A DNA stretch of 64,000 bases, from assembly GCA_035235625.1 (NCBI GenBank), contig CP141150.1, positions 6,510,001 through 6,574,000 of the forward strand. Direction: 5' to 3'. Below the pieces are notes generated by a model. The model was given only the letters and a program-made list of their open reading frames with translations. It did not search any database and was not told the origin of the DNA. Both the position numbers and the translations under genes were made by a program. This document shows, piece by piece, positions 10,701 through 30,029 of this stretch; positions within the stretch are counted from its first letter, which is position 1; each line of letters starts with the position of its first letter. Origin of the DNA: Saururus chinensis. Lineage: Eukaryota > Streptophyta > Magnoliopsida > Piperales > Saururaceae.

Positions 10701-11135
10701 AGAAAAAGAAGCTGATATTTTAGAAAAAACAATATGAGATATTAATGTGGGGTGGATGGCGTATTATAATTATAAGAGCAATACTACGATGGCTTGCATG
10801 CAAGAATGCATTGCACACAATGATGGATAGGTGTTAGCCCCTTAGCTCAATTCTTAAATATTGGCGTCGAGCACAGGGGTGTTCATTGATGCCCGTTGTC
10901 CATATGTCTGTCCATATTCGCATCTATTTTTATATAGAATGGACAATTTTTTGTCCGGGGCGGACACAGATACAGATACGGACCAAGTTTTTTGCCTGCA
11001 CTAATAGAGAGCTACGGACTCGGACATACCATTGTCCGTGTCCGCGGACATCCGCGTCCACCACCTTTACCTAACACTCCCTTAAATATAGTAGTAATTA
11101 TTATTAATTATTATGAAAAAATAAAATTTAGTTCT
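7731..11135. other. FREE1 upstream region and repeat-like intergenic DNA
   Basis: The first 250 bp beyond the FREE1 start hold GC-rich 5' UTR or promoter sequence with G-runs near 7926-7942. No convincing TATA box was fixed. From about 8050 to 10750 the DNA is unrecognised and non-coding, with a worn repeat-like look. Around 10870-11060 there is a stretch rich in GGACA/CCGTGTCC words with local palindromes. No gene could be supported. Confidence 0.5.
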
Positions 11136-11395
11136 TATATTGTAAGGTCACTGTTTTTTCTATGATTTTATGTGATTTTCCTGCTATTTTTCTAGTCATT
11201 TTCAGCGAGAAAATGTGACGCTATGGCGTATTTGTATTTATATATTTTACCCCATATTTATACCCGTAGAGTCATGTGTGGAGCTTAGTCACGGGCCTTA
11301 GGCTTCGCCATGCACTTACGGCGCGAATTTTGGAGGTACGACACATAACTAGGAGGTGAACGTGCATTGGGGACATAGATGTAAAAATTAAAAAG

Positions 11396-11398
<3 letters not shown>

Positions 11399-11443
<45 letters not shown>
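11399..11443. repeat. (AT)n microsatellite
   Basis: An uninterrupted AT dinucleotide run of about 45 bp in the 5' part of element C. It could overlap the TATA region of that element's promoter, but no other promoter evidence was found. Confidence 0.95.
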
Positions 11444-11445
<2 letters not shown>

Positions 11446-12964
11446 CATCCATCGGATTCCACAGAAGCGACTTAGAGAAGCTTTTTCACGTCCAGTAACA
11501 TTTTGTGAGAACCCGAGCTTGATTCTCGTCGCTCCGTTCTCCCTCCTTCGTTGTCAGATTCACTGGTTCTTGTCAAGATCTGCTTTGCCTCACCACCACG
11601 AGTCCGTAGCTATCGGCTATGACCGCCGCCACGGCCTCTTCGCTCCTCCATGAGGTACCGAACTTTTCTTCGGGTTTTTCTCTCCTTCAATCCCATTTTT
11701 GAGTTGTGGGTGTACGATTTTGATGTCGTTTGCAGCCACTTTCAACTAGACTTATGTTTAATTGGCTGCTAAGAACCCATAGGCGCTAGCTAGAGCCGCT
11801 GCTATACTTTGTTAGCTCCGCGGTGAGCTACCGGCACTTTGGTCAGGTTTTAGTTATGTTTCCCTCTCACTGTCCGTGGGATTTTTTTGAGACGCCGGTG
11901 TTTCCGGTCGTCGTCTAGCCACGGGACGGACTCCATCCAGCCTACCTCAACCCAGTGTCGGTAGGGGGTTACCGTTTCCGACCCCGCTTCACCCTATTGT
12001 ATTGCTATGCCCGATTAGATGCATTGGGTGCATCTCGGGTTGGCATCGGCGAGCCGTGGGCCATTTGGCCATCGTGGGCTCTACCCCAGTTCGACGACAG
12101 TGAGGGTCAGCCCCAATTGGCCCGATTATACACTCCACCCAGAATGGGCCGCTTGTCATTGCCCTATACCGTGCGAGATGCACAGCCCCCCATACCATGG
12201 GTTTTGGTTGTGGGTGACTATCAGCAATGTCGCCGCTTTGATTGGCCACAACTAGGGCCTTAGCCCTGTTGGCCTTTTGTGGGCCTTGGGTGGCCTCCTT
12301 TCAACCCTCTCCCCCACCCCTTTGGGTCGCATGTGCATGTGGCCACGCATGTGCTTTTGGGTTTAGGCGCCGCATTCGCGCCGCCTGACCATCGGTTGGC
12401 TTTGCCACTGAGTGGAGTTGAAACATAGCCCTCCTCCACCTCTCCTTTGTCCTCGAGCGTTGCCCCACACTCTCCGCCCATATGTGGGCCCTTGTTGATG
12501 TGAAATCATCACCGTTGGGTGCTGTCCATGGCCGATTTCGACGTCTTGCAGCTGGCTGAGTACTTCTTAGCCGCCGGCCGACCTTCAGTGAGTACACCAT
12601 CGACTTCTGGTTGCACTGCCACCTAGGTTGGCTTTACTTTTCTCCCGGTCGCCCTATGTGTCGCTGTGGATCGCGGGTTTTGCCGCATTGACTTCTGACA
12701 CCTCATTTGGCCATGATTGTTTCCGACACATCCTAAAATCCTCGGGACAACAGCTCTCTCAGTCAGGCAACAGTTTTGGCCGCCAACCCCGCCACCGTCA
12801 TGTGCTCACCATCAAATGTCATGATTATGAGGTAGGGGAGCTTTGAACTCTTAATTTCATGATAGCATGCTTTGAATGAGTAGCAGCATGCTAGGATTGT
12901 ATGATTCCATGCTTTGGATGTTAAGTAATGATCTGATTGCATGATGTGCATGTAAGCATGATTA

Positions 12965-13440
12965 TATGGTATGTTGAAATGCATATAACATGCATGTTTG
13001 GAGTATGTATGGATTATGCATGTACTAGTGATGGCTAGCGTGCATGTTTGAAGTATGTATGAATGTGTATGTATGTGCTAGTGATGGCTAGCGTGTATGT
13101 TTGATGTATGTATGTATGTGCTAGTGATGGCTAGCGTGTATGTTTGATGTATGTATGCATGTGCTAGTGATGGCTAGCGTGTATGTTTGACGTACGTATG
13201 CATGTGCTAGTGATGGCTAGCATGCATGTTTGTAGTATGTTTGGATTATGCATGTGCTAGTGATGGCTAGCATGCATGTTTGAAGTATGTTTGGATTATG
13301 CATATTCAAGTGATGGCTAGCGTGCATGTTTAGAGTATGTATGGATTATGCATGTGCTAGTGATGGCTAGCGTGTATGTTTGACGTATGTGTAAATGTGT
13401 ATGTATGCGCTAGTGATGGCTAGTGAGAATGTTTGTAAGG
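12965..13440. repeat. Minisatellite in element C, 43-57-bp units
   Basis: About nine units contain CTAGTGATGGCTAGCGTG followed by TATGTTTGA-type sequence and GTATGTATG runs. Unit length varies from 43 to 57 bp through gain or loss of the GTATGT part. It lies just before the D insertion. Confidence 0.9.
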
Positions 13441-14240
13441 TACGTATGTATGACCGTATGTGTATGTTATATGTATGTGTGATAGACATACGTATGTATG
13501 ATGACTATTCGCCTATGCTATGGATATGCGTATGTGCATGTGGGCAGTGTCAGTATTTGGTATGGATTTGGGTATGGATGTGTAAGCGTATGACAGATGA
13601 CAGAGGATATGGGTATGACGGGTGAGGTTTGTCATACAGTAAGAGTGTGCATGTGACAACCCGACCCGAGCCGGGCCCACAAAATCGCTAATAGGAAATT
13701 TTCTCTTTCCTTGAGCCAGGAATCATCGTCTGAGTGCGAGAGGTACAACGTTCGTCTACACACTACGGAGCTTTAAGGCTTCTTCGTACGTAGATTTAGG
13801 TTGTAACGAACACATACACACGACGAAGTTTCATAGTTCATCGCGTGTAAAATAAAATAAAACATATTATTATAATGATTTGGATCGGGCCAACGTTGCC
13901 TTGCCGTTGGTTGCCTACGTACGTATTGGATATTATCCCAATACGATCGGATCCGAACGTAGTTCTGCCTAATGGCTACTACATACTACAAACATCACAA
14001 AATCATACGTATAAAATACATATCTCCAAATATTTAATCGGAGTATACAAACACTCATCATATATCGGAGTCAAGCGGAAGTTAATAAATTAACGGAATC
14101 GTACATCTCGCTCTACCATAGAGCGGGATCGAAATCTCATACACGTATCTCGCTCTATCACTGAGCCGAGACCGAGAACACAAATTACACGTCTCGCTCT
14201 ACCCTAGAGCGAGACCACACACGTCATATAAGTATACATC

Positions 14241-14610
14241 ATGGCATCTAGGCACATAGCATAGTATATAGGCACATAGCATGGCATATAGGCACATAGC
14301 ATGATATATAGGCACATAGCATGACATATAGGTACATAGCATAGTATATAGGCACATAGCATGACATATAGGCACATAGCATAGTATATAGGCACATAGC
14401 ATGGCATATAGGCATATAGCATAGTATATAGGCACATAGCATGGCATATAGGCACATAGCATGGCATATAGGTACATAGCATAGTATATAGGCACATAGC
14501 ATGGCATATAGGCACATAGCATAGTATATAGGCACATAGCATGGCATATAGGCATATAGCATAGTATATAGGCACATAGCTTGGCATATAGGCACATAGC
14601 ATGGCATATA
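14241..14610. repeat. 20-bp minisatellite, about 18 copies
   Basis: The unit is GGCACATAGCATGGCATATA with frequent AGTA/GGCA and C/T variants. The period is exactly 20 bp for about 370 bp. Variant units alternate in blocks (GGCA, then AGTA), which suggests higher-order duplication of pairs. The matching element at 18479-20596 has only about three units. Confidence 0.97.
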
Positions 14611-15492
14611 GCATATAGGTATAGTAGCGGGATACAGAGTTGCTTACTGCCCTTATGTCTCGTATAGTAGAGGTACACGGAGTTGCTCACACGAGCATCC
14701 TTCCCTTCAGATCCGAAGATATTAGACGGAGCTTCCTCTAGCCTTCATACGTTCCTCGTCTTGTACAGAAAGACTACGTATAAATGTTCTCCTTGCCAGA
14801 GACTCTTCTCGTTTCCTGTGCCCGTGAGTGGCGGACAGAACCTCCCCTAGTCTAGATTACTTCTCTTGATGTAGCTTGGCAACTTCGGACAAAATCCCAT
14901 CTTGCTCCGGGCCCATATTTCTTGTTCGTTGCTCGAGGATGACGGGTGGAGCCACTCCTTGTCTCGGGGCATTTCCTCCTTATACGGTTGCCGAATCAAA
15001 AAAACGGACCTCTCCATCGCGTAGAACATACTTGATTTAGTCAAGAACACCTCTTGGACTGACTAAATCGGAGTTGGGATGGCCATAAACAGAGAAAACA
15101 AAGTTTGTCGGTACGGGTAGAACCTTTCTTTGTCTTGGGGCGTTTCCTCTTCATACGATTGCCAACTCAGAAAACGGAACCCTCCACCACGTAGAACATA
15201 CTCGATTTAGTCAAGAACGCCTCTTGGACCGACTAAATCGGAGTTGGGATGGCCAGAAACAGAGAAAATGAAGTTCATCGGTGCATGAAGATAACGGACA
15301 TGACCTCCTCTTGTCTTGGGACGTTTCTTCATCATACGGTCTCCAACTCAAAGAACGGGCAGCTCCATTGTGTAGAGCATACTCAATTTAGTAGGAAACG
15401 GGTCTTGAACGGCCTTAATCGGCCTCAGAACGGTCAGAAACGGGGGTAGAGAAGTTCTAGGTCAGAGAAGGAACGAAATGAGGTATATATAG

Positions 15493-15660
15493 ACCCCCGA
15501 GCCGCCGAAACCGCGGCGCTGCGCCGCCAAATCCGGCGGCGCCGCTGTTTTGGCGGCGGCGCCCGCCGAAACCACGCGCGGGTCGCGTTCGCGTGCGGAA
15601 CCGCGGCGCCCGCGATAACGCGGGCGCGCGCCAGCCGTGCGCCGCGCGCCGGCTAACCCA
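15493..15660. promoter_or_regulatory. CpG-rich block upstream of the TATA box in element D
   Basis: A run of GCGGCGCC, CCGCGG and GCGCGC palindromes with very high CpG density in otherwise AT-rich DNA. It lies immediately upstream, on the minus strand, of the TATA-like stretch at 15483-15492. The same arrangement is found at 20037-20240 and 48040-48200. A promoter role is inferred from position only. Confidence 0.55.
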
Positions 15661-16306
15661 TTTTCCATATTTCTTTTTTATTTTTATACTTAAAATTACA
15701 AACGCGCGCATCTTTCTACCCCGGAATCGGATTTGTGCGTTCTAGGTACCGTTGGACTCGTATCGACGAGCCCTTTGATACCAATCCACTAAAGTAGCAA
15801 ACCACACTATTTCCAAGTGGGTCCCGCCTATAAAGCACGTTTCTCAAATATCGTAATTTCCGGTCCCGACCTCTGTTTCGCGCGTTCTTCGAATCGTTAT
15901 GCTCGTAATGCCAAGCTCTACCTGGCTACGGGTATTTCATCTAATGAAAACCCTTAATATTAATCTCAAATTACCGAATTACCCTTAACCCTCCCGGGTT
16001 AAGCGTAACCAAAAAACGGGTCATTACAGTGCATAATTGTACAAATATAACGTACAAATTATGAAGTGAAAAGTAACCATAATAAGTGAGCTATAAGTAA
16101 GAGGGTGACAACTGGGTTGGCTATGAGGAGCTTCATTTGATGATGTCAGTGTAAGATGATTTGGCCATAAGATGGATGGCGAAGTATGTAAGACTACAGG
16201 GGTCTAATGTACAATGTGTTATGATCATGATGTGGACGAATTAAGTGAAGTCTGCTGCCCTGACGAACTTGGGTTTCGATCAGGCTCAGCTTCGGTTTCA
16301 TCAGTA

Positions 16307-16584
16307 GAGGACTATGAGTTTGTTTGGCATAATTATACTGCATAATGTACTTAATTCAAACTTGAATTATAAGCACAGCTAATGATAGCGTTGTGAGTTT
16401 GAGACCTGAGGGTTTGACGGATTAAGTTTTGTGTTTGAGCTAGTCGAGGACTGTGAGTTTGTTTAGCATAATTATACTGCATAATGTACTTAATTCAAAC
16501 TTGAATTACAAGCACAGCTAATGATAGCGTTGTGAGTTTGAGACTTGAGGTTTCGACGGATTAAGTTCCGTGTTTGAGCTAGCC
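16307..16584. repeat. 139-bp tandem duplication in element C
   Basis: Two adjacent copies (16307-16445 and 16446-16584) both start GAGGACT(A/G)TGAGTTTGTTT. They share GCATAATTATACTGCATAAT and GCACAGCTAATGATAGCG with few mismatches. Confidence 0.93.
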
Positions 16585-16644
16585 GATAATGAGTCGGCTG
16601 AGCATTTTTCATGTCTTACCATGGTGTTTATTGTGCGGGATGTT

Positions 16645-16893
16645 GTCTGTGTGCTATATAGAGCACCAGACATCTGATGCTCTGCTGAGAGCGACATATA
16701 TTTCTGATTTGGTCTGCGTGTTGTATAAGCCTAGACATTTAATGCTCTGTTGAAAGCGATGTACATTTTTGACTTTGTCTGTGTGTTGTTTGAAGCCCAG
16801 ACGTCTGATGCTCTGTTGAGAGCGAAGTATGTTTTCAATTTGGTTTGTGTGTTGTATAAGCCCAGACGTTGATGCTCTGTTGAGAGCGTTGTA
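16645..16893. repeat. About 65-bp tandem repeat in element C, four units
   Basis: Each unit contains a GTCTG(T/C)GTGTT-like stretch, AAGCCCAGAC, then GATGCTCTGTTGAGAGCG. The four units are diverged and are followed by the A insertion at 17023. Confidence 0.88.
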
Positions 16894-17445
16894 TAATTCC
16901 GCCCAAAAGTGGCACTGTATATTTCAGCCCAAGTGGCATTGTATGATTTCTGCCCAAGAGTGGCACTGGCACTATAAGACCCATTATCGTGGGCAATTCT
17001 ATGGCACTATAAGACCCATTATTGTAAGGACTCTCATCTCTAAACCGGTTTTCGTTTCTTTTTAATTATCGGTTATTTCATGGTTAACTCATTTTCTTAT
17101 CAATTCAGTGGTTTCGTAAATAAATGGTGTTTATGATGGTTTTAATTGAAATCAACTTTTTAATTAGAGGTTTTAAGTGATTTTGAATCAAATGTGATTT
17201 TTTGAGATTTTTTTGAATTTTTACTATTTTTCCAAAAATTAGGGTTTGGCAAGACCCCCTGTGGGCCCCACCGTCAAAATTTGGGTTTTTTGTGTCAAAT
17301 TAACCCCGACATCAACACAAGCCCTTATAAAAATTTTCATAATTTTTTCAGGTTTTATTAGTGCTCAAATAACTAAATTACCCATTTTTAGCCCATTTTT
17401 CTATTCATACCCCACAATTTACCCATACACACCCCAAAAACTTAC

Positions 17446-17453
17446 TATAAAAG
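17446..17453 (+). promoter_or_regulatory. TATA box of element A
   Basis: TATAAAAG lies about 420 bp into the element. The same octamer occurs at the equivalent place on the opposite strand in copy B (25092-25099), so it is conserved between two insertions. Use as a promoter is inferred. Confidence 0.6.
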
Positions 17454-19084
17454 GACAGACCTAAGCCATTTCCATTTTTGGGAATAGGCTGAGAAGGAGA
17501 CGTTAGGCCTAATCCCCAATAAGGCCCAGATTAGAAGGTATTTAAGGTAAGTCCCTTCTAATTAAGCACCAAATCCTATCTTTTCTCTTAATCCCTTCTA
17601 GATCTACCATTTTCCCTTTGTTTTGATTCGTTTTTAAACATCAAAACTACTGATTTCCATCTTTACTTCAAACCCTAGCTCTAAAAATCCATTTTTTATG
17701 TTCAACAAGCCCTAGATCTAAGTTTTTAATTAGGGTTTTCTTTGTTAAATTGGTTTTAATGGAGTTTAATTCAAAGTCTATGTCTTTGTAAGGTTTTCAA
17801 GAAGGGTGACCATCAAATCTAAGCCTAATCAAGGGATAAGGTAGTGGACTTTCGAAATTTCAGTCTTCCTATGGTAAAACTCTTGATTTTGTGGTTATTT
17901 TGAATGGATTTACTTGATTTAATGCTTTAATGGCATGATTAGTAAATGGTAATCTTTAATCCAGATTGCATAGGGTTTCATCTTATTATAATGTAGATTA
18001 GCTTTCTGGAAGTTATGGTGGAATTTTATTGGCATTTAGGTTGTTACATGGAGATTTTATGATTTATCAATGGAGTTTCAGTTTGAAAATTAGAAAGGAA
18101 AAAGAAGGTTGATTCTGCCTTGTTGGCGTTCGAACGACCCTCCTAGGCGTTCAAATGGCAACACTGTCAGTTCGACAAATTTCCAATGTAGCCGATCAAA
18201 CGGCCCTTATGGGCATTCGAACGGCTACACAATAGATTTTTTGTATTAGGTGCATGATGTTTATTTCGATTATTCTACTTTAATATGCCAATTTCAATGT
18301 GGAGTGTTTTGAGCTATAGTATGCTACTGGAAAGGCATACCATTGAGGTTATGAAGTTGAGGTATATATTTAGAGTTATGTGGAATGACTTATGGTTGGA
18401 GGTATGATGTTGGTATTGTCATCTTGAAGTTATGAATGGTTGATTCTCTATGGTTAAGTATATTTTCAGTAGAGCTATTGTAACGACCCGACCCGAGCCG
18501 GGCCCACAAAATCACTAATAGGAAATTTTCTCTTTCCTTAAGCCAGGAATCATCGTCTGAGTGCGAGAGGTACAACGTTCGTCTACGCACTACGGAGCTT
18601 TAAGGCTTCCTCGTACGTAGACTTAGGTTGTACACACGACGAAGCTTCATAGTTCGTCGCGTGTAAAATAGAATAAAACATATTATTATAATGATTTGGA
18701 TCGGGCCAACATTGCCTTGCCGTTGGTTGCCTACGTACGTATTGGATATTATCCCAATACGATCGGATCCGAACGTAGTTCTGCCTAATGGCTACTACAT
18801 ACAACAAGCATCACAAAATTATACGTATAAAATACATATCTCCGAATATCTAATCGGAGTATACAAAAACTCGTCATATATCGGAGTCAAGCGGAAGTTA
18901 ATAAATTAACAAAATCGTACATCTCTCTCTACCACATAGCAAGATCAAAATCTCGTACACATGTCTCGCTCCATTACTGAATCGAGACTGAGCACATCAC
19001 CCGGCTCGCTCTATCACTGAGCAGAGACCGGACACACACATCACGTGTCTCGTTCTACCATAGAGCGAGACAACACACATCAAG

Positions 19085-19146
19085 GCATATAGGCACATAG
19101 CATAGTATATAGGCACATAGCATAGTATATAGGCACATAGCATGGC
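19085..19146. repeat. 20-bp minisatellite, about 3 copies
   Basis: Three GGCACATAGCATAGTATATA-type units at the place equivalent to the large array in element D. This may be the ancestral short state of that array, or a contracted one. Confidence 0.9.
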
Positions 19147-20036
19147 ACACACGCCGTTCTATAATTAAAACAGGAGATCAGAAAAGCTTACTGCCCTCAT
19201 GTCTCGTATAGTAGTGGTATACGGAGTTGCTCACACGAGCATCCTCCCCTTCAGATCCGAAGATATTAGACGGAGCTTCCTCTAGCCTCTATACATTCCT
19301 CGTCTTGTACCGAAAGACTACGTATAAATGTTCTCCTTGTCGGAGACTCTTCTCGTTTTCTGTGCCCGTGAGCGGTGGATAGAACCTCCCCTAGTTTGGA
19401 TTACTTCTCTTGATGTAGCTTGGCAACTCCGGACAGAATCCCGTCTTGCTTCGGGCCCATTTTTCTCGTTCGTTGCTCGAGGATCACGGGTGGAGCCTCT
19501 CCTTGTCTCGGGGCATTTCCTCCTTATACGGTTACCGAATCAAAGAACGGACCTCTCCATTACGTAGAACATACTTGATTTAGTCAAGAACGCCTCTTAG
19601 ACCGACTAAATCGGAGTTGGGATGGCCAGAAATAGAGAAAACAAAGTTGGTCGGTACAGGTAGAACCTTTCCTTGTCTTGGGGCATTTCCTCTTCATACG
19701 ATTGCCAATTCAGAAAACGGAACCCTCCACCACGTAGAACATACTCGATTTAGTCAAGAACGCCTCTTGGACCGACTAAATCGGAGTTCGGATGGCCAGA
19801 AACAGAGAAAACGAAGTTCGTCAGTGCATGAAGATAACAGACAGGACCTCCTCTTGTCTTGGGAGGTTTCTTCATCATACGGTCTCCAACTCGAAGAACG
19901 GACAGCTCCATTACATAGAGCATACTCGATTTAGTAGGAAACGGGTCTTGAACGGCCTTAATCGGCCTTAGAACGGTCAGAAATGGGAGTAGAGAAGTTC
20001 TAGTCGAAAAAATGAGCTCAAATGGGGTTTATATAA

Positions 20037-20240
20037 GCCCCGGCGCGCCAAAAACCGCGGCGCGCCGCAAATTCAAACCGCGGCGCCAGGAAACTGCGGC
20101 GCCGCGCCGCACGAAAATGCGGCGCCGCCAGAAATGGCGGCGCCCGCTGTTTTCCCGCACCGTGCACCCACCGCGCGTCACCCGCGCGTTACGCGCGCCG
20201 CGATCGCGCGTGTCGCGCGCGCGTCGCGCATTTCTTTTTA
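20037..20240. promoter_or_regulatory. CpG-rich block upstream of the TATA box in element X
   Basis: Dense CGCGGCGC, GGCGCCGC and CGCGCG words directly upstream, on the minus strand, of the TATA-like stretch at 20028-20036. The exact words differ from those in element D, although position and composition are the same. Confidence 0.55.
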
Positions 20241-21373
20241 TTTTCCTTTTTTTAAAAAAAAAGAAATCGTTTAAACGCGCGTAACTTCTTACCCCGGATT
20301 CGCGCGTTCTTGGTACCGTTGGACTCGTATCGATGAGCCTTTCGATACCAACCCACTTAAAGTAATAAATCGTGCTCTTTTTAAGTGGGCCCCACCTATA
20401 TTGCACGTTTCTCAAATATTGTAACTTCCGGTCCTGACCTCTATTTCGCCCGTTCTTTGATTCATTACACTCGTTTCTTCAAGTTCTACTCAAATATGGA
20501 AGTTTAAACCATTGAAAACCTCTAAAATTTATCCCAAAATTATCCAATTAGGCCTAACCCTTCAGGTTAGACATAATCGAAAAACGAGTCGTTACAGCTA
20601 TAGCCTACTAACCGACTGATATGTCATGATAGGATGTGGTTAATTAATGTGTGAATGTTAGTGAACGTCATGGCTTAAGGATGAAGTGAATGATCTTACA
20701 TGTGTTTAGCTTGTGGTTGAGCTTTGATTTGAGTTATGATTTTAATGATTCTTCTCCTATTATTTCCGCTGGAATTCATGATTAGATGTTAATTTACATG
20801 CGTAGTGTGGTAGTGGGTTAATTTCAAGCATGTTGATATGCATTGAGTGAAGTGCTTCTACTAGGTATACACACACATGTGGGGTTTAATGATGATGTTG
20901 AAGCTTGATATTATAATTATGAATGATGCATTAGGGGCTGATGAGAGCACTTATCATGAATTAGGATTCATGTATGCCTTGCCCACGTATGTGTCATGTT
21001 GTATGCATCATGAAAATGAATTTCCAATTGAGGCTTTATCGAGGTTAATCGAATTTGATCGATTGGATGCAATGTGGTGAAATTGCATGTCGGGTTGATC
21101 GGCCGTGGCTTAATTAAAATTTGGTTGGTTCGAAAGGGCATGTTTTCGATTTGAGTTCCTACGTGGAACATGGATACTCCCCGGGTTGAGTCTAGTTAAA
21201 TGAAGTTATGTAAGGACGAGTTGTGTACTTGTCTTGCGGATTGAGATTATTATGATTATCTGGACCCTGAGAATCCAGCTGGTTTGTCCGAGTGCACCGG
21301 CTTACCAGGTATTGTTGCTTGGGACTTTAGTCTTGACAAGCAGGGTTGCCCGGGAGTTTAGACTTGATGGGCG

Positions 21374-21472
21374 GGAGTTGCTCGAAGGCGTTGGCTTTGA
21401 GGAGCAGGAGTTGCTTGAAGGCGTTGGCCTTGAGGAGCAGGAGTTGCTCGAAGGCTTTGACCTTGAGGAGCA
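21374..21472. repeat. 33-bp tandem repeat in element A, three units
   Basis: Three units start GGAGTTGCT(C/T)GAAGGC and end TTGAGGAGCA. Being a multiple of three, the repeat keeps a frame open that reads LLEGVGLEEQE. I regard this as a by-product of the repeat, not a gene. Confidence 0.93.
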
Positions 21473-21534
21473 GGTTTATTCTCTGTGTATGGACTTGCTT
21501 GTTGGACTAGTGTGTGTGTGACACTTATACATGC

Positions 21535-21960
21535 ATGATGAATGAGAATGTTGATGCATGATTGGATATGTATGTTAGAGATACATCTCATGCAGGTTTA
21601 TATGATGTTGATACATGATCTGAAATGTATGTTAGAGATACATCTCATGCAGGTTTATATGATGTTGATGCATGATCTGAAATGTATGTTAGAGATAATT
21701 TCATGCAGGTTGATATAATGTGATGCATGATTAGATATGTATGTTAGAGATACATTTCATGCAGGTTGATATGATGTGATGCATGATTAGATATGTATGT
21801 TAGAGATACATTTCATGCAGGTTGATATGATGTGATGCATGATTAGATATGTATGTTAGAGATACATTTTATGATGGTTGATATGATGTGATGCATGGTT
21901 GGATATGTATGTTAGAGATACATTTCACGCAGGTTGATATGATGTGAATGGCACTATGTG
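21535..21960. repeat. Minisatellite in element A, about 57-bp units
   Basis: About seven units contain GATGCATGAT, ATGTATGTTAGAGATACAT and TCATGCAGGTT. The inverted counterpart in copy B (22745-23035) has about five diverged units, so the array has changed length since the copies separated. Confidence 0.93.
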
Positions 21961-22080
21961 GATTATACACTATGATGCAGGTTTAGGTGATGTGTATGTG
22001 TGATCAGAAAATATTACATCTTGTCAATCTTTGATTTGAATGATTATATTATATTGCTGCCATGTTGCCAATACTGATAG

Positions 22081-25000
22081 TGTCACGCCCCAGCGATGCC
22101 CGACCCGAGCCGAACCCAGTCCAAGGGCCGGTCAAGCGCGCGAGGGCAACGAAGGGAAATTGAGAAATGATTTAGCGGAAGACTTAACCCTAACCACAGG
22201 CGATTTAACAAAATTACGGAGTACGCACAATCCTTTGAGCAAGAGTAAATAAGAAGGAAAGGAAGAGAGTTGCTTAACACAAAGTAAACAACTAAACTCA
22301 AACCCACATGCTTAGTCAACTATAGCCCACACCGGCTCAAAATAAGTCTTAAGCAACACAACTGTAAAATGTGACATAAATCCAAAACAACAGAGAACCC
22401 TACACAAAGGTTCTAAACATAAAGTATAAAACCAAAGGAAATTAAGTCACACAAAACGATCTCCACGATCACATCTAAGTCATCTCCGACCTTTCCTCAA
22501 AGAGGAGATCCTGTCCGTCTACATGTCGCGCCACGCAGCCCCAAAGCAAAACACAAGAAAGAGGGGTGAGTTTAACAAACTCAGCAATGGTTTTTAATAT
22601 CATTATCATCATCAAAAATACAATAGCATAGCAATATAATCATTCAGATCAAAGATTGACAAGGTGCATCATTTTCTGATCACACATATACATCACCTAA
22701 ACATTCATTATAGTGCATAATCCACATAGTGTCATTCTCATCATAACATCTTGCATGTAATGTATCTCTAACATACATATTCAATCATGCGTCGACAACC
22801 ATATCAATCCTACATGAGATGTATCTCTAACATACATATTCAATCATGCATCCATCGTATCAGCCTACATGAGATGTATCTCTAACATACATATTCAATT
22901 ATGCTTCACATCATATCAATTTGCATGAGGTGTATCTCCAACATACATATTCCATCATGCATCACATCATAACGACCTGCATGAATGCATCTCTAACATA
23001 CATATTCCATCATGCATCACATCATAACAGGAATGCCTCCATCAAGGAGTAAAACACAATCATTTCCGCAAGTCTGGACGTGGTCCAAATTTCCTAACCG
23101 GAAACCTGGGGCATTGCTCGCTCAGGACACAGTCTGAATTCCATATGAGAAACCAAGATGTAGGGGTAGTCAGCCCCTCTGCTTGCTAAGGATAATCCAC
23201 ACGGGAAATCCAAATTCCCCAAAGGGAACCTAGAGCAGGTCTACTCGCTAAGGACAATTTGGGCCAAGAACGTCCAAATTTCACGTAGGGAACCTATAGC
23301 AGGGTGTTCGCTAAGGACATTTTTGCGGTGGGGAGAGTCCAGATGTGACTATTCTCAATAAATAAATTTCAACCGCAACAAGTATACGACGCGTCCTCAT
23401 ATAATCTCATTTTGACTCAACTCAACCCGGGGAGTGCACATGTTCCACACAGGAACTCAAATCCAAAACATGTCCTTTCGAACCAATCAAGTTTCGATTA
23501 AGCCACGACTGATCAATTTGGCACACAATTTCTCACATTGCATCCAATCGGTCAAATTCGATTAACCTCGATAAAGTCTCAATTCGAAATTCATTTTCAT
23601 GATGCATGCAGCATGGTACATACGTGGGCAAGGCAGACATGAATCATAATCCATGATAAGTGCTCTCATTAGCCCCTAATGCATCATTCGTAATCATGAT
23701 ATCAAGCTTCAACATCATCATTTAACCCCACATGTGTGTGTATCTAGTAGAAGCACTTCACTCAATGCATTTCAACATGCTTAAAATTAACTCACTACCA
23801 CACTACACATGTGAATTGATGTTTAATCATGAATTCTAGCGAAAATCATAGAAGAAGAATCATTGAAATCATAACTCAATTCAAAGCTCAACCACAAAGG
23901 CTAAACACATATAAGATCATTCACTTCATCCATAAGTCATGACATTCACTGACATTCACTAACATTCATACATCAACTAACCACATTCTATCATGACAAA
24001 TCAGTCCATTAATAGGTTGTAGTCCTACTGAAAATATGCTTAACCATAGGGGATCAACCATTTATAATTTCAAGATGACAATCCCAACATCATGCCACAA
24101 AACATAAGTCATTCCACAAAATCTCTAATCATATATCCCAACTTCATAACCTCAATAGCATGCATTTCCAGTAGCATAATATAGCTTAAAGCACTCCACA
24201 TTCATATAAAATTGGCAAGTTAAAGTGGAATCATCGAAATAAACATCATGTAAATAACATAAAATTCTGCTGTGTAGCCATTCGATCGGCTAAACGAAAA
24301 AAATTCAAATTCACAGTTTGGCCGTTCGAATGCCCAGTAGGCCGTTTGATTAGCTGAACTAGAAATCTGTCAATTCAACAATGTTGTCGTTCGAACGCCC
24401 AGAAGGGCCGTTCGAACGCCAACAAGGCAGAACTTACCATCTTCTTCCTTTCGCAAATGCAAACCGAAACTCCATTGATAACACTTTAAATCATCATCTA
24501 ACATCCTAAATACCATCAAAAGTCCTCCATGACTTCTAGAATGCTAAACCATATCATAACAAGATAAAACCCTATGAAATCGGGATTAAAGATTACCATT
24601 TTCTAATCATGCCATTAGCACACCAAATCAAGTAACTCTATTCAAAATAAGCCACAAAATCAACAGTTTTACTATAGACAAACTGAAATTTTGAAGGTCC
24701 ATTACCTTATCCCTTGATTAGACTTGGATTTGACGGTCACCCTTCTTGAAAACCTTACAAAGACATAGAGTTTAAATTAAACTCCATTAAAATCGATTTA
24801 CCAAAGAAAAACCTAATTAAAACTTAGATCTAGGGCTTGCTGAACATAAAAATCAGATTTTGAGAGCAAGGGTTTGTAGTAAAAATACAAATCAGTAGTT
24901 TTGATGTCCAAAACCGAGTTGAAACAAAGGGGAAATGGTAGATTTTGAAGAGATTAAGAAGAAAGTTATAGTTTAGTGCTTAATTAGAGTAGGCTTACCT

Positions 25001-25520
25001 TAAACACCTTCTAATCCACGCCTAATTGGGGATTAGGCCTGACCTCTCCTCCTCAGCCTATTCTCAAAAATGGAAATGGCTCAGGTTTGACCTTTTATAG
25101 TAAGGGTTGGGGTATGTATGGGTAAGTTATAAAGTGTAAATAGGAAAAGTAAGCTCAAAATGGGCATTTTACAAATTTGAGCACTAATTAAGTCTAACAA
25201 AATTCTGAAAATTTTTGTATGACCTTAAATAGATATCTAGGTTCATTTGACCCAAAAACTAAAATTTCGACGGTACGGCCTATAGGGGTCCCGCCAAAAC
25301 CCTAATTTTTGGAAAAATAGTAAAAATTTAGAAAAATCCCAAAAATTCACATTTGATTTAAAATCACTTAAAACTACTAATCTTAAAGTTGATTTTGGTT
25401 AAAACCATCATAAATACTATTTATTTATGAAACCACCGAATAAATCAGAAAACACTTAACCTCACGATAACCAACAATTAAAGAAAACCAAAAACCGGTT
25501 TAGAGATGAGGGTCTTTACA
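22081..25520 (-). mobile_element. Solo-LTR-like element B, second copy of A in inverse orientation
   Basis: On the plus strand it begins TGTCACGCCCC and ends GGTCTTTACA. On its own strand it therefore runs TGTAAAGACC...GGGGCGTGACA, like A. GATAG flanks it on both sides (22076-22080 and 25521-25525). It is 3440 bp long. Landmarks shared with A in reverse order include the TATAAAAG box, ACCGGTTT near the start, repeated GTTCGAACG words, the GATACAT minisatellite and AGGATCTCCTCTTTGAGGAA near the end. No coding domain was found. Confidence 0.92.
22745..23035. repeat. Minisatellite in element B (inverse of the A array)
   Basis: About five units contain ATGTATCTCTAACATACATA with CATCATGCATCACATCATA-type spacers, the reverse complement of the 21535-21960 array but with fewer and more diverged units. 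Confidence 0.9.
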
Positions 25521-26261
25521 GATAGTATATTATAAAAACCATTGTTGAGTTTGTTTAAACTCACCCCTCTTTATTGTGTTTTGCTTTGGCGCTGCGTGGC
25601 GTGACACGCAGATGGACAGGATCTCCTCTTTGAGGAAAGATCAGAGACGACTTAGATGTGATTGTGGAGACTCTTATGTGACTTATTTTCCTTGATTTAT
25701 GCTTTATGTTTAGAACCTTTGTGTATGGTTCTCTATTGGATTTATATCACTTTACACAGTTATGTTGTCTAAGACCTATTTTAGAGCCAGAGTGGGCTAT
25801 GATTGACTAAGCTTGTGGGTTTGAGACCAGTCGTTTATTTTGAGTTAAGTGACTCTCTTTCTTTTCTACTTATTTACTCTTGCTCAAAGTCGTGTGCATA
25901 CTCCGTAATTCTGTTAGATCGCCCGTAATTAAGGTTAAGTCTTCCACTAAACCGTATCTCAATTCCCCTCGTCGCCCCCATACGCTTGACCGGCCCCTGG
26001 ACTGGGTTCGGCTCAGGTCGGGCAGCGCCGGGGCGTGACAATTATGGTGGGCAACTGTTTGACCCCTTATGTGTGGGTGTTTATGTTGCGCCTGTACTCT
26101 GACGTGTTTGATCCAGTGCCCCATAAGCATTGGTGTGCCTTACCTTCGGAAAAGTCCATGACATCTAGTCACTCCCCGGAGGTTAAGGTGTTGCCCCAGT
26201 GGCCTTCTTTTCCATTCGACGTTGGAGCTTATTAGTTGTAAAGAGCTTCAGTGGTCAATAG

Positions 26262-26475
26262 TATGAGCACGACTGTAAGCGTATGTGCATGAGCACAACT
26301 GTAAGAGTGTGTATGAGCACAACTATTAGAGTATGTGTATGAGCACGACTGTAAGAGTATGAGTATGTGTACGACTGTAAGAGTATGTGTATGAGCACGA
26401 CTGTAAGAGTATGTGTATGAGCACGACTGTAAGAGTATGTGTATGAGCACGACTGTAAGAGTATGTGTATGAGTA
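26262..26475. repeat. 26-bp tandem repeat in element C, about eight units
   Basis: Units read GAGCACGACTGTAAGAGTAT plus GTGTAT, and the last four are nearly identical. The array lies in the 3' part of element C, after the A insertion ends. Confidence 0.94.
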
Positions 26476-26995
26476 TGAAAATACTCATTACCCTACTTTT
26501 TAGCCCCGTTGTACGGGAGGTTTTGCAGGTTTGTGCGGAGAGCTCCTGGAGATGGATGCTCATTTCAGCGGTGGATTGATTCCCGTTGACTCAGGTATAT
26601 GCTTAACTCACTGCGAGTTTATTTGTGTCACGATCTCTTGTATTGGGTGAGACAAGAATTAAGATATGTATGTATTCTGGACTTTCAATTGGATTAGACT
26701 GTGGACTGTTATGGAACTTGCACTCAGGGATGCATGGGAGATATTTATATTTTAAATCTATGATCATAGCAATTTAGTTGTACATGTGTTTTCGAGTAGC
26801 GCTTGAGGATATTTGCTTTGGTCGTACGATGTTTGACCCTATGATGGAAAATTGATGTTTAGTATTTTAAATTATAAACTGTTTTATCAGGTTTTAATTT
26901 CGTCATTTTTCCTCTGATTTACAGATAGTATATTGCAAAAAAATTTCGTGAATTTTAAGGAAAATGTATGAAAAATCATGGGCGTTACATATATA

Positions 26996-27310
26996 GCGTC
27001 TTCGGACAGTCCTAACACGCTACATAGGCACTTGATAACGTAAAAACATGAATCTAATATTTATGTAAGCTACATAGGCACTTGACAACTTAAAAACATG
27101 AATCAAGTACTTATGTAGCATGTTTGAACAGTTCTAACATGTTACATAGGTACTTAACAGTTTAAAAATATAAATCCAGAACTTAAGTAGCATGTTAGGA
27201 CAATCTTAATATGCTATATAAGTATTAGACAGCTTGAAATATGGATCTAGTACCTATGTGGCATGTTATGACAGTTTAAACATTCTACAAAAGCACTACA
27301 AAATTTAAAC
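26996..27310. repeat. About 72-bp diverged tandem repeat, 4-5 units
   Basis: Units contain AGCATGTT(T/A)GAACAGTTCTAA-like sequence, then a CTACATAGGCACTTGACA-like stretch, TTAAAAACATGAATC and ACTTATGT. One unit lacks its first 24 bp. It starts directly after the target duplication of element C. Confidence 0.85.
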
Positions 27311-27344
27311 TGGGATAAAAATTTAGGTGTTAAATATTTGTGCC

Positions 27345-27720
27345 ACTATCTAAAGTATTGGGTGAGATGAGAATTAAGATGTTTATGTATTCTGAACTTT
27401 TAGTTTGGATCAGACTGTCGACTGTTATGGGAGTTGCACTCAACGATGCCTGGGAGTGATTTGTATTTAAAGTCTATAATCATAGCAATTTATTCGTACG
27501 TTTATTTTTGAGTAGCGCCTAAGGATATTTGGTTTAGTCATACGATGTTTAATCGAATGAGTAAAAATTTGGATGGAAAAATGATTGATGTGTGATGTTT
27601 TAAATTTTGAACTGCTTTCCTAGGTTTTGTATTCGTCATTTTTCCAATTTACAACCATTATATTGCAAAAAATTTCTGTGAATTTTAAGGAAAATGTGAT
27701 AAAAAATCTCGGGCATTACA
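27345..27720. mobile_element. Second copy of the 3' end of the element C family
   Basis: It matches 26640-26989 throughout: ATTGGGTGAGA, GACTGTTATGG, GAGTAGCGC, ATATTGCAAAAAA and the terminus GGGCATTACA at 27720. No 5' end was found within the window, so it is a fragment or the far part of an older copy. Confidence 0.75.
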
Positions 27721-27867
27721 ACTACAAAGCTAACAAAGTCTTGGCTTGGCGATCAAATCTCAATATGATGGTCACATTGCCTACACTAAGTTCACGAGCG
27801 AGTGGAGATGGCTCTATCCGAGCATTGAGCCAAATCTAGCCGAGGTAAACCACTGTTTTCTTTCTAT

Positions 27868-28764
27868 GTAATGCTGCATGTTTTTTATGTTGATATTTCT
27901 CCTACAAAATCTCTAAGCACATATGTAATTTGTATCTCATAGGAGTAGCCTTTCAAGGTTTCTACATTGCTTTTTTGAGTCAGCACATGATGACCCTCCT
28001 GAATAATTTATTTTCTGAAATAAGACATTTAATGGTATAGAGATAGTACTTTTTTCTTACTTAATAATATTAAAAGACATAACATAATCCTCTCTTTACC
28101 TGCATTAATAGTTTTATTTGTTTTTAAAATAAATTATTTAAAAAATCAAATAGAGCTATTAACACTGAACAGAAGGAGTATTTTGTTAATAACTACATTA
28201 AAAACCAAGTCTATCAAAATAGAAAATATAGAAAATAAAACAACAATGATATTTATATTATTATTTTTAGTTACATCGAAATATATGTAAAACATACATA
28301 AAATCATAGCTTAACTTAGTTTTTCAATCTAAACTAGTGTAAGTGTGTCGGTGATGGACAAAGTATATTGTCGGCAAGTAACATGTCATTGAGCGTGTTA
28401 GTGAAACCATTTAAGAGTTTGTTACAATAAGAACATGGGTAGTTACGCGGATATAAGTTTAAAGAGGTGGTTATATCCCTTAAAAAATGCAAAGGTTACA
28501 TGATTACGTATGAAAGGAGTCAAGAGACTCAAAAAGAGGTCAAGAGTCTTCTTACAAGGGACTTGAAAGTAAACTCCACTGCAGAACATTGACGTTCTTG
28601 AGAAGTTTTATATATATGATATCATGACCACTTTTAATTTACAAATTCATTCTGTTAAATTATATTTTAAAAAATTATACTTTATAAAATTAGGGGCAGA
28701 ACAACTAGATCAAGTTGTATTGAGTTTAATATTGTCTCAATAGACTTATTTTTTAGCCATATTT
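27868..28764. repeat. Long direct duplication, copy 1
   Basis: About 0.9 kb starting GTAATGCTGCATGTTTTTTATG and ending near TTTTTTAGCCATATT. It is repeated at 29062-30029 with an offset of about 1195 bp. It contains a MITE-like stretch (AAATAAGACATTTAATGG ... AACAGAAGGAGTATTTT). No coding sequence is present. Confidence 0.9.
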
Positions 28765-29061
28765 GAAGCCAAGTTGTGACCCTTGTGCAATATTGTTTGA
28801 TAGAGCTCGAATTTAGAAACATAATGATACCAAGAACATGCATATTCGAGATCGGGAGATAAAGTTAGATTAATTTAAAGTTTAAAATCTGGGTTTGACA
28901 CGATATCTGAATTTATTCTAACAATTTTTATTACTATACGTAATTCATATTTGGCAGTAAATTTTTTAAATTAATTCTAAAAAATTATAATTTTGTTTCT
29001 ATAAAATTTGACACCTAAACAACCCCTTAAGCACTTGATTTGGAAAACTCTTCTCATTTAA

Positions 29062-30029
29062 GTAATGCTATATGTTTTTTATGTTGCTATTTCTCATATA
29101 AAATCTCTGAGCACAAATGTAATTTGTGTCTCATAGGAGTAGCTTTTCAAGTTTTGTACATTGCTTTTTTTGAGTCAGCACATGATGAACCCTCCTGAAC
29201 AATTTATTTTCTGAAATAAGACATTTAATGGTATAGAGAGAGTACTTTTTTCTTACTTAATAATATTAAAAGACATAACTTAAAACTCTCTTCACCCGCA
29301 TTAATACTTTTATTTATTTTTAAAATAAATTATTTAAAAAATCAAATAGAGCTATTAATGCTGAACAGAATAAGTATTTTGTTAATAACTACATTAAAAA
29401 TCAAGTCTATCAAATTAGAAAATATAGAAAATAAAATAACAATGATATGCTATATTATTATTTTTAGTTACATCGAAATATATGTAAAACATACATAAAA
29501 TCATAGCTTAACATAGTTTTTCGATCTAAACTAGTGTAACCCCAAAAAAAATTTCTAAATAAAATTTCAAAATTTTGTACTATCAACAGGTCACAAATGC
29601 GTTGCTTAGTGCACCGGTGAAGGACAAAGTATATTGTCGGCAAGTAACATGTCATTGAGCATGTTAGTGAAACCATTTAAGAGTTTGTTGCCATAAGAAC
29701 GTGGGTAGTTACACGGATATAAGTTTAAAGAGGTGGTTATATCCCTTAAAAAATGCAAAGGTTACATGATTACGTATGAAAGGAGTCAAGAGACTCAAAA
29801 AGAGGTCAAGAGTCTTCTTACAAGGGACTTGAAAGTAAACTCTACTGCAGAACGTTGACGTTCTTGAGAAGTTTTATATATATGATATCTTGACCACTTT
29901 TAATTTATAAATTCATTCTGTTAAATTATATTTAAAAAAATTATACTTCATAAAATTAGGGGCATAGCAACTAGATCAAGTTGTATTGAGTTTAATATTG
30001 TCTCAATAGACTTATTTTTTAGCCATATT
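29062..30029. repeat. Long direct duplication, copy 2
   Basis: This is the second copy of 27868-28764. It carries about 70 bp absent from copy 1, around 29540-29612, just before GGTGAAGGACAAAGTATATT. A unique spacer of about 300 bp separates the copies. Confidence 0.9.

Follow-up and report, generated by a model that had tools for sequence, protein, structure and literature searches.

The stretch of Saururus chinensis DNA considered here raises the question of how five repeat elements came to lie one within another, and whether they are whole mobile elements or the remains of larger ones. By the window we mean the whole stretch analysed, 64,000 nucleotides long (C11:6510001-6574000); the S. 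chinensis assembly that was searched comprises 516 Mb in 11 contigs. The reading that we hold with high confidence is that the five are solo LTRs of three long-LTR families, serially nested and shortened by LTR-LTR recombination after insertion. General literature searches found no study tied to this locus. The layout is as follows, in window coordinates, with the elements named according to the reading just given.

11136..11140, no strand: left target duplication of C (TATAT)
11141..26989, plus strand: C solo LTR, U3 start at 11141 and U5 end at 26989
13647..13651, no strand: left target duplication of D, within C (GTGCA)
13652..16028, minus strand: D solo LTR, D/X family, 2377 bp
16029..16033, no strand: right target duplication of D (GTGCA)
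17018..17022, no strand: left target duplication of A, within C (ATTAT)
17023..26040, plus strand: A solo LTR, A/B chromovirus family, 3450 bp without X and B
18474..18478, no strand: left target duplication of X, within A (GCTAT)
18479..20596, minus strand: X solo LTR, D/X family, 2118 bp
20597..20601, no strand: right target duplication of X (GCTAT)
22076..22080, no strand: left target duplication of B, within A (GATAG)
22081..25520, minus strand: B solo LTR, A/B chromovirus family, 3440 bp, in opposite orientation to A
25521..25525, no strand: right target duplication of B (GATAG)
26041..26045, no strand: right target duplication of A (ATTAT)
26990..26994, no strand: right target duplication of C (TATAT)
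27335..27720, plus strand: further C-type LTR, truncated to its U5 end and starting 345 bp past where C ends

The initial annotation was right about the boundaries of C, D, A, X and B at these coordinates: all five have TG...CA ends, and all five are flanked by perfect, identical 5-bp duplications. It had called the arrangement a four-level nest, which overcounts by one, there being three levels of insertion (C; D and A; X and B). Without D and A, each taken with one copy of its duplication, C is 4444 bp long. A 20-bp repeat array lies inside D at 14240-14611, and A has a TATA-like box at 17446. The further statement that the nest holds no gag, protease or polymerase was borne out by a domain search of 98 open frames of at least 50 aa, which returned no match of these kinds; weak matches to 14 families (E 0.0019 to 0.099) included no retroelement family. 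Neither Rfam families nor tRNAs turned up when the window was scanned.

Comparison of the window with itself sorts the five elements into three families, namely C, A/B and D/X, and the A/B and D/X relations are an addition to the initial account. D and X have both ends in common, with 0.847 identity over 2085 aligned bases, as do A and the reverse complement of B, with 0.802 identity over 3363 aligned bases, while both ends of C are common to seven other genomic copies. Because the ends recur in this way among the D/X, A/B and C copies, the limits of the elements are fixed independently of the target duplications. Since A and B are members of one family in opposite orientation, B sits within its own relative. 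A second inverted self-nest was seen at L012, where an A/B LTR is interrupted by an A/B LTR of the opposite orientation (L041). The truncated C-type LTR at 27335-27720, which is 79-83% identical to C copies, was absent from the initial account as well.

The identity and orientation of the ends can be read from the flanks of other genomic copies. Among 30 left ends of the B family, the window's own included, two (L021 and L033) share a 1.46-kb flank that encodes gag with a zinc knuckle and an aspartyl protease, both reading away from the LTR. Between the A/B LTR and gag lies a primer-binding site (PBS), which we take to resemble the initiator-Met motif. The TGTCACGCCC end was ruled out as an LTR start by the adjoining gag and protease and is a U5 end, which places A and C on the plus strand and B, D and X on the minus strand. 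U5-PBS junctions number 163 genome-wide for A/B (35 places, at most three mismatches), and exact junctions number 39 for C and 52 for D/X, with a reversed-pattern control of 0 in each case. These junctions give the orientations of C (plus) and of D and X (minus), and that of C can also be taken from the polypurine-U3 junction of one C-family copy. The PBS of C and of D/X is of the same type as that of A/B. The search for fuller members elsewhere, which had been proposed as a check, was successful in that LTR ends run into a PBS in all three families; since the same three LTRs do so elsewhere, the copies in the window fit solo LTRs.

For A/B, the coding capacity of the parent can be pieced together. 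The gag/protease region beside the A/B LTR of L021 matches PF03732 (3.6e-12) and PF08284 (6.1e-32), and the piece behind that gag (L079) matches reverse transcriptase (PF00078, 4.3e-16). Another A/B copy, L080, has a frame directly before the LTR with integrase zinc-binding, core and SH3-like domains and a chromodomain (PF17921, 7e-19; PF00665, 2.2e-6, and PF00385, 3.8e-5, the last two both below the Pfam curated cut-off). Given gag, protease, reverse transcriptase and integrase with a chromodomain in A/B neighbours, a set pooled from three genomic places and not one element, the A/B family is a Ty3/gypsy chromovirus. Its long LTRs make the Del/Tekay lineage a candidate placement.

The internal regions of C and D/X are of another character. 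For C, no gag/pol was found in 40 of the 73 frames of at least 35 aa beside six PBS sites (1.5 kb each), where the two matches obtained were at chance level and to unrelated families. Two C internal copies have 1507 bp in common at 93%. One C element (L096, L100) has a PBS, an internal part of ~1.66 kb and then a further C-type U3, with AAGGAGGGAAGAA, a polypurine tract, directly before TGTAAGG (U3). For D/X, no gag/pol match came from nine frames of two pieces, one of 1.5 kb next to a PBS and one of 1.2 kb that lies within another element, and these two internal pieces share short repeats. The complete internal region was covered in the one C element and in no D/X element, the other reads being partial. 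On these data, the C and D/X parents may be non-autonomous and LARD-like. The initial annotation had left the choice between solo LTRs and non-autonomous elements; the former holds for the copies in the window, and the latter is possible for the C and D/X parents.

An alternative account of the nest is that the five elements are complete non-autonomous single units with TG...CA ends that never had two LTRs. It would agree with the self-comparison of the window, in which no direct terminal repeat pair bounds any of the five, and with the genomic copies read to both ends, which are in the majority single units with 5-bp duplications. All seven C copies, of 4063-4711 bp, have a matching duplication at both ends (four perfect, three with one mismatch). 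The duplications are perfect in the three A copies with both ends read (L068, L069 and L071, of six fetched). For B, the right end was examined in 21 of 29 other copies and was present in 15, of which 11 have a matching duplication (nine perfect, two with one mismatch); the fetched stretch held no right end in the other six (L012, L014, L016, L019, L020 and L029). The four B copies with both ends and no matching duplication are L021, L022, L028 and L015. At L021, gag adjoins the other end, and L022 and L028 have a common 48-bp outer flank at 83%, which could be a polypurine tract. No explanation is at hand for L015, the outer flanks of which are similar to those of L017 (735 bp, 92%) and L021 (481 bp, 72%). 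For D/X, left ends only were read, in 11 other copies. Most flanks of the loci read are mutually unrelated, so those copies are not 5' LTRs.

Against single units of this kind, the U5 end is followed by a PBS in all three families, A/B LTRs abut gag-protease and integrase-chromodomain, and the polypurine tract before the U3 start in one C copy is LTR anatomy. We reject mobile units without LTR pairs on the U5-PBS junctions and leave them a very slight chance of being correct.

A second alternative keeps the LTRs and holds that each of the five arrived as a single LTR through copying, with no shortening afterwards. One sequence cannot separate single insertion from later shortening. U5 ends number 3192 for A/B (23 letters, at most two mismatches; control 0), 4139 for C (20 letters, at most two mismatches; control 1) and 1100 for D/X (25 letters, at most two mismatches; control 0). 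Among the matches listed, with the U5-end and U5-PBS lists paired by eye, 4 of 100 zero-mismatch A/B ends (all on C1), 4 of 100 C ends and 13 of 94 D/X ends on C1-C5 run into a PBS. If one 3' partner is assumed for each 5' LTR, about 92 of every 100 ends sampled, for A/B as for C, are single or truncated LTRs, a point that also suits insertion as single LTRs. Per full element, that makes ~23 such LTRs in A/B, ~23 in C and ~5 in D/X, ratios that are rough and biased high, truncated LTRs being counted as single, mutated PBS missed and the samples small. A/B and C look solo-dominated.

What speaks against insertion as single LTRs is the regular LTR-internal units that spacing indicates in A/B and D/X, the expected reciprocal product of exchange, and we know of no route for many single-LTR insertions in plants. 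At C1:20677344-20706002, five U5-PBS junctions of A/B lie on the same strand, spaced 7161, 7158, 7152 and 7153 bp apart; those at C10:348008-362447, also on one strand, are 7204 and 7201 bp apart, and at C1:26328813-26342898 a spacing of 7038 bp is followed on the same strand by 7030 bp to a U5 end. Spacing this constant in A/B suggests LTR-internal units arrayed head to tail, as the reciprocal product of LTR-LTR exchange would be. At C2:8713143-8723693, and in six further pairs, U5 ends of D/X follow one another on the same strand at a spacing of 5028-5834 bp, mostly ~5.26 kb, with three in a row at one place (C2), which implies short internal parts of ~3 kb. We regard insertion as single LTRs as still less credible than units that never had two LTRs.

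If the five are solo LTRs nested in series, as we hold, relatives of the outer elements should be found without the inserts, and they are. The C relatives compared were L045-L051, the best 7 of 39 other copies listed (plus-oriented BLAST rows only). At the D site, five of the seven are exactly contiguous and two have ~60 bp between the aligned parts; at the A site, four are exactly contiguous and three have 35 bp between them; neither insert is present in any of the seven at either site. Six of the 39 other A copies listed were compared after alignment rows of 200 bp or less had been dropped. All six are exactly contiguous at the B site, and the five that cover the X site (L070 does not) are within 5 bp of contiguous, with the B insert in 0/6 and the X insert in 0/5 of the A copies read. 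B itself is continuous across both of the sites in A at which X and B are inserted. The claim that the outer elements rejoin once the inner ones are removed is thereby matched, for each of the four inner insertions, by relatives that lack the insert, and the possibility named against it, that the inserts are a constant part of other copies, is excluded for the C (n=7) and A (n=6) copies read. Around 26420-26478, L045-L051 hold roughly 240-360 bases more than C in the window; the shortfall is perhaps a loss beside a 26-bp repeat array. Misassembly or a segmental-duplication mosaic, which might be suspected where repeat ends number thousands (A/B, C) or ~1100 (D/X) in the genome, is rejected as the least credible account of all, since a misjoin would not create the perfect 5-bp duplications found at every junction together with interrupted sequences that rejoin in relatives.

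By the nesting, C is older than both D and A, and A is in turn older than both X and B, with D versus A and X versus B left unordered. The age order first proposed (C, then D and A, then X and B) is the one that the nesting gives, and the insert-free relatives agree with it. The outermost insertion, that of C, rests on its own duplication and ends. In a ranking of end identity to listed genomic copies, taken from the best 40 candidates per query and covering C, A, B and X, the best values are 81% for C (39 others listed, 76-81%), 93% for A (39 others, 91-93%), 94% for B (40 others, 87-94%) and 96% for X (39 others, 93-96%). The rank C < A < B < X agrees with the nesting order, A and B hardly differing, and nearest-copy identity is not the same as an insertion date.

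LTR-LTR recombination is the standard route to solo LTRs. In the sequence of events that we favour, C entered host DNA, D and A entered C, and X and B entered A. Each integration would have been the work of a retroviral-type integrase, producing the 5-bp duplication that is observed; C and D/X, whose internal pieces as read are non-coding, were possibly moved by enzymes of coding relatives. LTR-LTR recombination would then have removed one LTR together with the interior, so that a single LTR stayed behind between the two copies of its duplication; the anatomy, a single LTR within a duplication, is the basis for this step, of which the product is what is seen.

A broader reading, to which we give somewhat less than an even chance, is that C and D/X are non-autonomous and carried by A/B-like chromovirus enzymes, with LTRs about as long as the internal part, or longer, such that exchange is frequent, most copies become solo and the reciprocal arrays survive. 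If this is true, one genome holds both products of the same LTR-LTR exchange. With many solo copies, few full copies and some arrays in one genome, the relation of LTR length to the rate of solo formation would become measurable, and such families could serve to compare deletion with reciprocal duplication. The nest is itself a worked example of chromosome growth by nested insertion and of shrinkage by LTR recombination.

Elsewhere in the window, a direct duplication of ~0.9 kb (27852-28763 and 29047-30029; 92-97% identity, ~0.28 kb between the copies) is unclassified. A scan outside 11100-27000, covering 128 of the 182 open frames of at least 60 aa, gave a few matches to WD40/RBBP4-type histone-binding (8.7e-26), RING (1.6e-8) and ZF-HD (0.0007) families, frames pooled, which point to ordinary plant genes nearby.

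Among known systems, Del/Tekay chromoviruses are like the families here in their long LTRs, TG...CA ends and 5-bp duplications, and like A/B in having a chromodomain behind the integrase; an initiator-Met-like primer site is also common to them and the families here. A difference from Del/Tekay is that no gag/pol match came from the internal pieces of C and D/X that were read. LARDs have long LTRs, a PBS and a polypurine tract, and a conserved non-coding internal part. C resembles LARDs in one element with a PBS, an internal part of ~1.66 kb and a polypurine tract before the next U3, and in six places read without a gag/pol match, and D/X in the repetition of U5 ends at 5028-5834 bp and in the two pieces without a gag/pol match; C and D/X stand here without an identified autonomous partner. 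The name LARD (large retrotransposon derivative) is used in PMC1940013, and Del LTRs are given as 1143 to 4831 bp in PMC4029996.

Solo LTRs and nests of this kind are well known, and what the window holds is textbook biology, cleanly preserved. According to a fifteen-plant study (PMC7251063), which cites solo formation as being linked to LTR length, solo LTRs per full-length element in plants follow the regression 2.69 + 0.00114x; A/B and C, at ~23 per full element by the rough count of 100 ends each, can be set against this. The same study and REANNOTATE (PMC2672092) both deal with nests of this type. Nested clusters of solo LTRs in plants are like the present one in having a single LTR within an intact duplication and the younger element within the older; the present one differs in that all five members are solo and two families occur twice.
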